From positions 1-33,678 of the forward strand of contig JAAEPL010000290.1 in assembly GCA_024232675.1 (NCBI GenBank): a stretch of DNA of 33,678 bases. Direction: 5' to 3'. Positions 11,796 through 31,632 of the stretch are shown piece by piece. The position numbers and the translations under genes are program-made. Source of the DNA: Planctomycetaceae bacterium. Lineage in GTDB: Bacteria; Planctomycetota; Planctomycetia; Pirellulales; Pirellulaceae. Under the pieces are notes generated by a model that worked only from the letters and a program-made list of their open reading frames with translations, ran no database searches and had not been told where the DNA came from. The number at the start of each line of letters is the position of its first letter. Position 1 is the first letter of the stretch.

Positions 11796-14159
11796 CTACC
11801 GGCGTTCGTAACGGCGACCACCGCCACCGCCACCACGATTGCCGCCGCCGCCGCTGCCGCCACGACCGCGACCACCGCCGCCGCCACCGCCACCGCGACC
11901 ACCACGACCGCGTCCGCCGCCACCACCACCTCCGCCGCCACCGCGGCGTTGGGGTCGTTCGCGATCTCCACGGTCGCCACCACGATCTCGGTCTCCGCGA
12001 TCGTCACGATCGAAGTCGCCATCGTCGTCGAATTCTCCGTCACCATCTTCTACGTCGAACTCATCTTCCAGACCGAGTTCTTCGATGGCACGTTTACGGC
12101 TGAGTTTGACACGGTCTTGACCATCCACTTCGATGACCATGACCTGCATTTCGTCGCCGATTTGGCAAACGTCACCGACGTCGCTGATGTATCCGTTGGA
12201 CAATTCACTAATGTGGCAAAGTCCGTCGCGGCCGGGGAGGATTTCAACAAAGGCTCCGAAATCCTTGATGCTGCTGACGGTACCGTTGTAGATCTTGCCG
12301 ATTTGCACGGTTGCGGTGCAGGCTTCGATCTGTGCCAGTGCGTCGGCAGCCATTTCGCCGTCCGTTGCGGCGACTGTGACCCAGCCTTCGTCGTCCACTT
12401 CAATGACGGTTTCAGTGGATTCTTGGATGGCACGAATGTTCTTGCCTCCAGGTCCGATGAGCATGCCAATTTTTTCGGGGTCGATCTGGGTACGCAGTAA
12501 ACGCGGTGCGTGTTCCGAGATATCCTCTTGAGGTTTGGAGATAACGGTTAGCATCTTGCGAAGGATGTTGATACGAGCTTCGCGAGACTGAGCCAACGTT
12601 TCTTTCACAATGGCCATTTCGATGCCGCGAAGTTTGAGGTCGAGTTGGATCCCGGTGATGCCGTTTTGCGTTCCGGCAATCTTGAAGTCCATATCGCCAA
12701 AGTGATCTTCGCTGCCGAGGATGTCAGTCAACAGAACGTGCTTGTCGCCCTCTTTGACCATCCCCACAGAAATACCAGCTACTGGATTGGTGATTTTTAC
12801 ACCCGCTGCCATCAAACCGAGGGTAGCACCGCAAACGGATGCCATGGATGAAGAACCGTTAGATTCCGTGATGTCAGAAATGACACGGATGGTGTAAGGG
12901 AAGTTCTCAGCTGTGGGGAGAACGGGTTTGACACTTCGTTCGGCCAAGGCACCATGGCCAATTTCTCGTCGACCAGGTCCGCGGTTGGGGCGGCATTCGC
13001 CGACTGAGAAAGCTGGGAAGTTGTAATCCAACATGAATTTCTTGGAGTACTCATCCATCAAGCCATCGACGCGTTGTTCGTCACGGCCGGTACCCAGCGT
13101 AATGGTGATCAAAGCCTGAGTTTCACCCCGTTGGAACATGGCGGAACCATGAACGCGTGGGATCAAGTTGACTTCGCATTGAATGTCTCGTAATTCTGCC
13201 GGTCCACGACCATCGGCACGTTGACCATCTAGCAACATTTCGCGAATGCAAACTTCTTCGAGATCGTGCCAAGCGCCCTTGAATCGGGAGGTGGAAATGG
13301 CTCCCTCGGCACCGGGGTCAGGAATCATGGCTGCCATGGCGTTGCTACGCAATTCGCTGCCTGCGGCGGCACGTTCGTGCTTGTTTCCGTCAGACGTCAG
13401 GGCGGCTTTCAATTGACCGTAGTACTGATCTTTCAGCTGACCCAGCAACCCATCGTCTTCTGGTGCTTGCCAATCCATTTGTTCGATACCGGCTTTGCTT
13501 TTCAGCTCTTCCATCATCTCGCAAACCTGTTGGACGATGCCATGGGCGAAATCGATGGCGTCCAGCATTTCGGCTTCGGGCATTTCTCGGGAAAACCCTT
13601 CGATCATCGTGACGGCTTTCGGAGTTCCCGAAAGAATCATGTCGAGATCACTCTCTTCCAACTCGTCGTGGGTTGGGAACGCGACCAATTCTCCATCGAC
13701 GCGACCTACGCGAACCGAAGCAACCGGCTCTGGGAATGGCATGGGCGAAGCGTAAACAGCAGCTGCCACACCATTCATGGCCAAGACGTCACCGTCGTTT
13801 TGCTTATCGCTGGACAAGACAATCGCCTGGCATTGAACTTCGTCCTTAAATCCATCGGCAAACATGGGGCGGATGGGACGATCACACAAACGTGAAGTGA
13901 GAATTTCCTTCGTGGTCGGACGACCTTCTCGCTTGATGAAACCACCGGGGAATTTACCAGCGGCAGCGGTTCGCTCACGATAATCACAGGTGAGTGGGAA
14001 GAAGTCGATTCCCTCTCGTGGGGATCCTGTGGTGACCGCATTCATGACCGTTGTGTCGCCGAGTCCGACAATCACGGCACAAGCGGCTTGTTTGGCCAAA
14101 TGGCCTGTTTCAAATGACAATGTCTTGTCGCCAATTTTTCGTTCAACTTTTAATTTCAC
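11796..14159 (-). CDS. pnp: Polyribonucleotide nucleotidyltransferase with acidic + RGG/glycine-rich C-terminal tail
   Basis: Two RNase PH domains (GETQALITITLGT), KH domain (IGMLIGPGGKNIRAIQE), S1 domain (GKIYNGTVSSIKDFGAFVEILPGRDGLCHISEL), then a low-complexity D/E- and RGG-rich tail. Confidence 0.95.
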   Translation of the reverse strand: MKLKVERKIGDKTLSFETGHLAKQAACAVIVGLGDTTVMNAVTTGSPREGIDFFPLTCDYRERTAAAGKFPGGFIKREGRPTTKEILTSRLCDRPIRPMFADGFKDEVQCQAIVLSSDKQNDGDVLAMNGVAAAVYASPMPFPEPVASVRVGRVDGELVAFPTHDELEESDLDMILSGTPKAVTMIEGFSREMPEAEMLDAIDFAHGIVQQVCEMMEELKSKAGIEQMDWQAPEDDGLLGQLKDQYYGQLKAALTSDGNKHERAAAGSELRSNAMAAMIPDPGAEGAISTSRFKGAWHDLEEVCIREMLLDGQRADGRGPAELRDIQCEVNLIPRVHGSAMFQRGETQALITITLGTGRDEQRVDGLMDEYSKKFMLDYNFPAFSVGECRPNRGPGRREIGHGALAERSVKPVLPTAENFPYTIRVISDITESNGSSSMASVCGATLGLMAAGVKITNPVAGISVGMVKEGDKHVLLTDILGSEDHFGDMDFKIAGTQNGITGIQLDLKLRGIEMAIVKETLAQSREARINILRKMLTVISKPQEDISEHAPRLLRTQIDPEKIGMLIGPGGKNIRAIQESTETVIEVDDEGWVTVAATDGEMAADALAQIEACTATVQIGKIYNGTVSSIKDFGAFVEILPGRDGLCHISELSNGYISDVGDVCQIGDEMQVMVIEVDGQDRVKLSRKRAIEELGLEDEFDVEDGDGEFDDDGDFDRDDRGDRDRGGDRGDRERPQRRGGGGGGGGGGRGRGGRGGGGGGGGRGRGGSGGGGNRGGGGGGRRYERR

Positions 14160-28456: not shown

Positions 28457-29548
28457 ATGCAGTTGTGGTGTTTGGTCACTTTTCTTGTTGGTCTGGCCGC
28501 TGTACCCCTGCCAGCACCGGCTGCCGACCCTCCTGTTGAATTGGGGGCCGTGGATTGGGGGCGTGATTTGGAAGCGGCCAAAAAAACGTCGGCAGAGACC
28601 GGCAAACCCATTTTGGTACTGTTTCAAGAAGTTCCTGGCTGAGCGACCTGCCAAGATTTTGGCAGCGGTCCGCTGTCATTGCCCTTAATGGTGGAAGCGA
28701 TTGAAGATCAATTCATTCCAGTGGTTATTTTTAATAACAAAAAAGAGGATGAAGAATTATTGAAATCTTTCTCGGAACCTGCTTGGAATAATCCTGTCGT
28801 GCGTTTCTTGGATGGCGACGGGAAGGATTTAATTCCGCGCAAAGATAGTGTTTGGCAAGTTGCGCCTTTGGCCGAGCGAATGTACGCCAGTCTAGAGGCC
28901 GCGGGTCGGAAACCACCGGCTTACTTGCGGGCGATGGCTTTAGGGTGGCGTTATTCCCTGCAACGAGCGAGCTTTGCCATGTTGTGATACTGGGAAGGTG
29001 AGGCCCAGTTGGGTTCTTTGGAAGGTGTTTTTGCAACTCGCGCAGTATGGGCTGGGCCCCGTGAGGTGGTCCACGTCGTATTTGATCCGGAAGTTATTTC
29101 CTATGCCAATCTGTTGGCAAAAGCCCGGCAGATGAAATGCACCGACGCGGTGTATACCTTTAATGATGAGCAACAAGAGACAGCGCAAAAAGCAGGTGTC
29201 GAAAACATTATCACATGGCAAGAAGACCTGGAGACCAAACAAGTCGCAAAAGCTGAGCAGAAGTACTACTTGCGAAAATCCGTCTATGGCCACTTGCCTT
29301 TGACGGAATTGCAAGCCATTAAAATGAACGCTTTGTTGGGTGGGAAAAAGAGTCGTTGGGAGGTTAAGGATTTCCTCAGCCCGCGGCAAAAAAAATTGTT
29401 AGTGCAAGTGCGCCGAGCACTTGCCAAAAATCCCCAAGCGTTACAGCAATTCGGATTTCCGGAAGACCAAAGGGACTTGATTGACTATCAACGCCGAATC
29501 GAATCCCATCTGGATCTCATGGTCCCTGGGAAACCCAAAGCCCCATAA
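28457..29548 (+). CDS. Candidate two-selenocysteine selenoprotein: secreted thioredoxin-like (VPGU-type) + MsrA-like domains, with TGA at 28640-28642 and 28985-28987
   Basis: ORFs 28409-28642, 28679-28987 and 29009-29548 are in one frame. The stretches between them contain no stop other than the two TGAs. Readthrough gives GKPILVLFQEVPG-U-ATCQDFG and RASFAML-U-YWEGEAQLGSLEGVFATRAVW...VHVVFDPEVISY. ATG at 28457 has GGGAG upstream and starts a signal peptide. Confidence 0.82.
28661..28677 (+). promoter_or_regulatory. Candidate bacterial SECIS element after first in-frame TGA
   Basis: Stem GGCAGC (28661-28666) / GCTGTC (28672-28677), one G-U wobble, apical loop GGTCC. Loop begins 25 nt after the TGA. 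Confidence 0.6.
28989..29009 (+). promoter_or_regulatory. Candidate SECIS-like hairpin after second in-frame TGA
   Basis: Perfect 6-bp stem ACTGGG (28989-28994) / CCCAGT (29004-29009), 9-nt loop AAGGTGAGG containing GGU. Closer to the TGA than in the first case. Confidence 0.4.
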
Positions 29549-30213: not shown

Positions 30214-31632
30214 CTAAATGGGGTCCACAGCGTCCTCGGAAAATGGAGTTTCGGGTCGGGGCATCCATTTGCACAAGGCGATTCCAAAGAAATAAAGGCA
30301 GGTCAGTGGCGCACCCAGCATGAGCATGCTAATTGGATCGGCGGGTGTTAACAGCATGGATAGAACGCTGATGATCATCACGGCCAACCGCCAATTGCCC
30401 TTGAAAAATTCGATCGAGGCCAAGCCGACCCGATTAGTAAACAACATGACGATCGGTAATTGAAAGGCGATGCCAAACCCAAGTGGTAAGAACATGACAA
30501 ATGAGAGCCACTCTCCGATTCGCAATTGCGGCGAAATGCCCATGCTTGCGTTAAAGGAAAAGAGGAATTTCAACACAGGATCGAACACGAAAAAGAACGC
30601 CAGGCAAACGCCAAAGACGAAAAGTAAAATGCTGAGCGGCAGATAGTAGAAAACGTATTTCTGTTCATGCGGGTAAAGGCCTGCTGCTACGAACATCCAG
30701 ATTTGGTAGAAGACAAAAGGTGCTGCGATCGTCAAACCGACGATAATCGCCGCCTTGATCCAAACCATGAAAACTTCATGTGGAGAAAGCGCTTGCGTGC
30801 CTTCGGTGATATCTTGCCAGATCTCGACTCGAGCCAGATCGATGCTGGGCGGGGTGATTTCTTTGGGAAATACGCTGGCTATCAAAAGTCGATTTAATCG
30901 TCGGCTCAGTTCAACGTCGTTCGGGTGCAAATCGGCCTGAACTTTCATCAGCGCAATTTGGTTTTCCCGCGCCGGATTCAAGAGTTGTGAAAACGACCAT
31001 GAGGGTTGGCTGAATTGTTTCTTGAAGGCTGCCTCATCATGCAGCGCAGGATCTTCCAGCAGTTCGTTCAAGATCTTTATCAACCGGCTATGGGCGGCAC
31101 TTTCATCTTCCGGTTTGGCCAATTGTTTTAGAGCGTCAGGGGGTAGCAAATCATGGATGGCTTTGACGCGTTCATCGCTCCCCGCATCAGCCCCTTCCAG
31201 AATCGCATTCGTAACGGTTTCGGTAGCCGTGCCGGGCTTTATAGCGCTGGGGCGAAAGCGGTAGGGTGTTAAATCGATTTCTTCAAAGGAACCGGGACTA
31301 ATTGATCGAATCGCTGTCACCAATTGGCCAGGGTCGACCCATACGGTATTAGGGGCCAGTCCGTCCTGAATGCGGTTGGATATCTCTGGGGGGTAAAATC
31401 CCTCCAAAGCGGTGTAGCGATTCAACGCGGCTTTGTCATTGTATTGTTTGATGGCACGCCGTAAGGGCTGTTGCAGAAAGTTCACAACGTTCTCTGCAGT
31501 CATAAAACCCACAATACAGCCGATGCCAATAAAGATCAGGCAGCGCACCAATGTTTTGCGGAGTTCCTCAATGTGGTCCCCAAAGGACATCCGTGTGTCT
31601 TCGAAAAGATCGTCGGAGGGGCGTTGGGTCAT
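30214..31632 (-). CDS. tatC: Sec-independent (Tat) protein translocase subunit TatC with large insertion
   Basis: MSFGDHIEELRKTLVRCLIFIGIG N-terminus and C-terminal PFVFYQIWMFVAAGLYPHEQKYV...FGIAFQLPIVMLF...DPISMLMLGAPLTCLYFFGI. 472 aa with ~215 aa inserted in the first periplasmic loop. Confidence 0.9.
   Translation of the reverse strand: MTQRPSDDLFEDTRMSFGDHIEELRKTLVRCLIFIGIGCIVGFMTAENVVNFLQQPLRRAIKQYNDKAALNRYTALEGFYPPEISNRIQDGLAPNTVWVDPGQLVTAIRSISPGSFEEIDLTPYRFRPSAIKPGTATETVTNAILEGADAGSDERVKAIHDLLPPDALKQLAKPEDESAAHSRLIKILNELLEDPALHDEAAFKKQFSQPSWSFSQLLNPARENQIALMKVQADLHPNDVELSRRLNRLLIASVFPKEITPPSIDLARVEIWQDITEGTQALSPHEVFMVWIKAAIIVGLTIAAPFVFYQIWMFVAAGLYPHEQKYVFYYLPLSILLFVFGVCLAFFFVFDPVLKFLFSFNASMGISPQLRIGEWLSFVMFLPLGFGIAFQLPIVMLFTNRVGLASIEFFKGNWRLAVMIISVLSMLLTPADPISMLMLGAPLTCLYFFGIALCKWMPRPETPFSEDAVDPI

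Follow-up and report, generated by a model that had tools for sequence, protein, structure and literature searches.

The gene at positions 28457-29548 (forward strand) of the 33,678-nt stretch of DNA analysed here (the window) is very probably intact and, as judged from sequence, encodes a redox selenoprotein in which both internal UGA codons appear to be read as selenocysteine (Sec). The support for this reading, itself sequence-based, comes from family membership, conservation, the presence of Sec machinery, selection acting past both UGAs and RNA constraint.

Reading frame and selection past both UGA codons

The frame runs from an ATG at 28457 to a TAA at 29546-29548 and contains two in-frame stops, TGA at 28640-28642 (codon 62) and TGA at 28985-28987 (codon 177). 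The preliminary description had read three successive ORFs of one frame separated by two TGAs; its coordinates are exact and there is no further in-frame stop. With TGA translated as Sec, the product is a protein of 363 aa carrying U62 in the motif EVPGUATC and U177 in MLUYWEGEA, a gene that a standard-code gene caller would split into pieces. The N-terminus of the readthrough protein is hydrophobic and signal-like. A probable signal peptide, read from the sequence, spans residues 1 to about 23 (MQLWCLVTFLVGLAAVPLPAPAA-D; 28457-28525, forward strand), where the AlphaFold2 model places a helix at residues 4-15 with low confidence, and the protein is presumably exported to the periplasm.

Two in-frame TGAs within one gene could also be expected if UGA had been reassigned throughout the organism to another amino acid, e.g. 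Trp. This is hardly conceivable, since TGA serves as the ordinary stop of 6 of the 22 clear genes of the window, no internal TGA is found in the other 21, in which TGG occurs 133 times, the homologous residue is Cys rather than Trp, and tRNA-Sec, SelA and SelB are all present in the genome (see below).

A congener represented by an independent assembly (G436, locus L131) has the same 363-codon frame with both TGAs and no indels, and the two codons are found again in a third genome of the family (L135). Between the window gene and L131, dN/dS (Nei-Gojobori) equals 0.18 before U62, 0.066 between the two codons, 0.10 after U177 and 0.10 overall. The longest identical run of this gene pair, in which about 7 differences per 60 nt are expected, is 86 nt long and covers the second UGA together with the hairpin that follows it (hairpin 2, see below).

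The assembly of the window genome (G000, 4.88 Mb) is fragmented into 684 contigs and 90% complete, which could favor the view that the gene is a pseudogene or that its two stops arose from sequencing or assembly errors. We consider this extremely improbable, because the identical pair of TGAs is present in L131, within the genus, and in L135, within the family, the frame shows no other defect and evolves under purifying selection, and the TGAs are confined to two redox Cys columns.

The L131 copy terminates with TGA, in addition to two internal TGAs that are apparently Sec codons, while the window copy stops with TAA. As the stop of L131 is itself TGA, context must tell Sec from stop.

Misbinning was also considered, since 8 same-family genomes of the first phylum sample gave no strong match to the protein. 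It was rejected on the grounds that a genus mate, 98% identical to the window in PNPase, has the same two-TGA gene, and that the family occurs in 10 of 149 same-family genomes. The C-terminal tail of the window PNPase (11796-12046) has a very high content of Gly, Arg and Asp, and both strands there contain long open frames of low complexity.

A search for functionally related neighbours of the gene gave no result. The neighbouring genes encode a DUF418 protein, a sulfatase, TatC and mannose-6-phosphate isomerase, the last two being syntenic in several related loci. TatC (30214-31632, reverse strand) carries a long additional stretch ahead of residues 277-442 and adjoins the gene also in the related loci L050, L054 and L082.

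Family membership and domain architecture

The VPGU-type selenoprotein group named in the preliminary description does exist, and the protein belongs to it: NCBIfam profile NF041383 ("VPGUxxT thioredoxin-like (seleno)protein, type 2") matches residues 28-315 with 385.5 bits against a cut-off of 275, over its full length (1-287 of 287). The VPG[U/C] site that characterizes NF041383 lies in the Trx-like domain, as EVPGUATC at residues 58-65. This domain is a Thioredoxin_7 domain (PF13899, E=3.4e-9, above the cut-off; residues 33-119, 28553-28813, forward strand) with the UxxC site U62-A-T-C65, and C65 is present in 112 of the 113 family members compared.

The C-terminal half contains an MsrA-like core (residues 174-231, 28976-29149, forward strand; LUYWEGE...E203...C228). 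In the window protein the PMSR profile (PF01625) reaches 18.9 bits over these residues (E 0.0019), which is below the Pfam cut-off of 23.7. The same profile matches 12 of 13 aligned relatives at E<0.01 (best 3.5e-6), and the family profile matches MsrA chains in the PDB with E down to 1e-10. The AlphaFold2 model (pLDDT 87, pTM 0.83) gives MsrA structures as the top Foldseek matches in the PDB, the best being the crystal structure of the U16C variant of Clostridium oremlandii MsrA, a natural selenoprotein. Taken together, the sub-threshold PMSR match, the matches of the relatives, the PDB profile and the model indicate a fusion of a Thioredoxin_7 domain with an MsrA-derived one. By profile and fold the C-terminal domain is MsrA-derived, i.e. 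related to MsrA, and is not classed as MsrA. The thioredoxin-MsrA-like fusion proposed earlier therefore holds with respect to MsrA relatedness, while MsrA activity is reserved, as several MsrA loops have been lost.

The family members were drawn from 392 genomes of the phylum, 84,980 scanned species genomes and the 149 same-family genomes; as the patterns used in the 84,980-genome scan required Cys to be encoded at the site that they covered, members with Sec at both sites (U/U) were missed there by design. Among the 113 distinct members, the pairs at sites 1 and 2 are C/C in 73, U/C in 22, U/U in 17 and G/C in one, with C/U in none. The alignment of positions 62 and 177 with homologues, suggested as a check in the preliminary description, shows that column 62 is occupied by Cys in 73 members, Sec in 39 and Gly in one (Cys or Sec in 112 of 113), and column 177 by Cys in 96 and Sec in 17 (113 of 113). 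Both TGAs do fall, as had been described, at predicted catalytic Cys positions, the second at that of the MsrA GCFW motif. The two-Sec fusion, which had been considered notable, is real as far as sequence shows, but the gene is not unique, as 17 of the 113 sampled members share the U/U arrangement. Named members of the family include Pirellulaceae, Phycisphaerae, Saprospiraceae, Verrucomicrobia, Myxococcota and Ignavibacteriales. In the tree of the members, several loci from genomes of the same family as G000 are separated by zero branch length from named Pirellulaceae, Mariniblastus and Rubripirellula records, which makes Pirellulaceae the most likely origin of the window.

Sec machinery and SECIS-like hairpins

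The four genes whose presence had been proposed as a test, and which were expected elsewhere in the genome, were all found outside the window, on other contigs of the same assembly: selA (7e-146, contig C656), selB (1e-112, C12), selD (4e-107, C661) and tRNA-Sec (71 bits, C260; anticodon TCA, i.e. UCA, according to ARAGORN). SelA is also present in 14 of the 15 two-Sec genomes tested, the exception (G173) being 77% complete, and in all 7 U/C genomes of the phylum sample.

The selD gene (L017, 54-980 of its contig, minus strand) has an in-frame TGA in the motif CAGUAGK and likely encodes a Sec-containing selenophosphate synthetase. A separate exported MsrA, encoded on contig C174 (L139, about 56-1000), is selenoprotein-like, with Sec in GLGUFWG and Cys in HEPC. 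The genome thus has further selenoprotein-like genes.

Bacterial SECIS elements are described by a loop of 3-9 nt with an early G, a stem of 4-16 bp, a spacing of 16-37 nt and an MFE of -7.5 kcal/mol or lower (PMC13188914). Hairpin 1 (UGGCAGCG-[GUC]-CGCUGUCA; 28660-28678, forward strand) agrees with all of these rules, having the loop GUC, 8 bp, a UGA-loop spacing of 25 nt and an MFE of -11.0 kcal/mol. Compensatory changes support it among the 8 members sharing the arrangement of the window; covariation at site 1 was counted on this subset because the loop distance varies between subclades. The idea of one homologous site-1 hairpin across the whole family was rejected, as that distance ranges from 18 to 27 nt and differs by subclade.

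Hairpin 2 (GGCCC-[AGUU]-GGGUU; 29002-29015, forward strand) fits the same rules in its loop, its 5-bp stem and its spacing of 19 nt. In the window its MFE is -6.1 kcal/mol alone and -9.0 kcal/mol with an outer helix (a 43-48 nt fold), against the threshold of -7.5, and it is no stabler than shuffled sequences (z -0.05, or +0.80 for 48 nt). An RGUU tetraloop 19 nt after the site-2 codon is present in 17/17 Sec members versus 7/96 Cys members (Fisher 5e-15, relatedness ignored), and the tetraloop with four pairs in 15/17 versus 2/96. In the site-2 stem, 94% of cells are paired, double changes occur at 4 of 7 pairs and no slid register equals the one proposed. Compared with synonymous shuffles, the RNA is more stable in Sec than in Cys members at both sites (p=1e-7 at site 1, 2e-5 at site 2), with the reservation that all these U-versus-C statistics take related sequences as independent. 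An Rfam search of the window gave no match at gathering thresholds.

The energetic weakness of hairpin 2 in the window, together with the published listing of NF041383 with one Sec, would agree with a reading in which only the first UGA is decoded and the second terminates translation, leaving a thioredoxin-like selenoprotein of a single domain and a C-terminal part in decay. We find this improbable. Decay is at odds with the low dN/dS past the second UGA and with a column 177 that holds Cys or UGA and nothing else; likewise, the association of the RGUU loop with Sec, the compensatory pairs and the position of the longest identical stretch of the gene pair all argue that the second codon is decoded as well.

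The relative L050, a U/C member with Cys at site 2, has an AGTT loop and a partial stem at the corresponding position, perhaps a remnant or a precursor of a site-2 SECIS.

Proposed function, evolution and relation to known selenoproteins

In the mechanism that we infer for the two-Sec protein, which comprises Sec insertion, export, the substrate and the electron path between the domains, SelB and tRNA-Sec would decode both UGAs, each directed by the hairpin that follows it. In the N-terminal Thioredoxin_7 domain, U62 and C65 would form a UxxC redox pair. The MsrA-derived domain would contribute the catalytic U177, the conserved acid E203 and C228 as the probable resolving Cys. U177 may reduce a sulfoxide-like or other oxidised substrate, C228 would then resolve it by forming a selenenylsulfide, and either the protein's own UxxC domain or an exported reductant could reduce this bond.

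U62, C65, U177 and C228 are the only thiol or selenol positions of the mature protein and fall naturally into two pairs, U62/C65 of thioredoxin type and U177/C228 of MsrA type. C228 (codon at 29138-29140, forward strand) is Cys in 101 of the 113 members, is lacking in 3 of the 17 two-Sec members, and lies near the place of the HEPC Cys of the seleno-MsrA encoded in the same genome, which makes it the best candidate to resolve U177.

The catalytic features of MsrA that are kept are U177 in the GCFW position, Y/F178, W179 and E203 (112 of 113 members), which matches Glu94 of E. coli MsrA. According to the MsrA and family alignments, two MsrA loops are missing family-wide, one between GVxxTxxG and xEVVxV and the other after SYxxLL. 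We take these loops to be the ones on which Tyr82, Asp129 and Tyr134 lie in E. coli MsrA. Their loss makes the reduction of peptide Met sulfoxide uncertain. It is nearly an even question whether, with both Sec residues made, the MsrA scaffold serves another substrate, or exchanges electrons internally with the thioredoxin domain, rather than acting on Met sulfoxide. The loss of these loops throughout the family while Cys/Sec, FW/YW and the acid stay, as well as the sub-threshold PMSR score, would fit such a change of function; the conserved Glu and aromatic residues, together with Sec in the catalytic position, speak instead for some remaining MsrA-like catalysis, and no positive evidence names another substrate.

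A tree of the 113 members requires no fewer than 13 changes at site 1 and 3 changes at site 2. The AU test rejects monophyly of the 17 two-Sec members (p=0.005), and the window gene groups with two other two-Sec members of the same family (99% SH-aLRT), amid U/C and C/C relatives. On more than one occasion, therefore, the second Sec either arose or was retained while other lineages lost it, and the two-Sec form is recurrent in the family.

Although this is a tentative idea, which we hold to be rather less likely than not to be correct as a whole, the protein might be a two-center selenoenzyme whose second Sec was repeatedly acquired, with the UxxC site feeding electrons, within one polypeptide, to an MsrA-type Sec domain that has been remodelled and whose substrate is not peptide Met sulfoxide. 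Sec would then have entered the reductase site before the terminal site, as U/C and U/U members are seen and C/U never; no significance is attached to the absence of C/U, given that about 3 changes at site 2 suffice in the tree.

The second Sec site, with a SECIS-like hairpin of its own, doubles the number of Sec sites known for the family, and the link between the C-terminal half and an MsrA-type catalytic center makes the function testable. The C/C, U/C and U/U members of the family form a natural series, with gain or loss of Sec at corresponding sites. Such a series might be helpful in understanding the reasons for using Sec, the way in which two SECIS elements act in one short mRNA, and whether there is a set order of Sec entry in redox relays.

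The first Sec of NF041383, in VPGU, is already known. A 2026 review (PMC13188914) lists the family with the motif VPGU and one Sec, as a predicted selenoprotein that is not experimentally verified, and, as cited there, NF041383 corresponds to OS_HP5 of the Olavius symbiont study of Zhang & Gladyshev (2007). No description of a second Sec was found in the literature searched, the scope of which excluded the 2007 Olavius study and Haft & Tolstoy (2025), and the second site appears to be new within a known selenoprotein family.

The window protein resembles NF041383 in its full-length match, VPGU site and two-domain layout, and differs from the family as listed in its second Sec at the MsrA-type site, its active site being UATC (UxxC). 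With seleno-MsrA (PF01625; Sec16 of C. oremlandii MsrA) it shares Sec in the GCFW position, the conserved Glu and the fold, but it lacks the loops for other substrate-side residues, is fused to a Thioredoxin_7 domain, has a different candidate Cys partner (C228) and scores under the PMSR cut-off. NF041382 (VPGUxxT type 1) has in common with it the N-terminal VPGU thioredoxin-like domain (126 bits, residues 24-151), but this score is far under the 350-bit cut-off and the match stops short of the C-terminal MsrA-like domain. Finally, the Trx7/PDZ (seleno)protein NF041199 shares the Thioredoxin_7 region (24 bits, far below its cut-off) and, unlike the window protein, is a PDZ fusion listed with CxxU.
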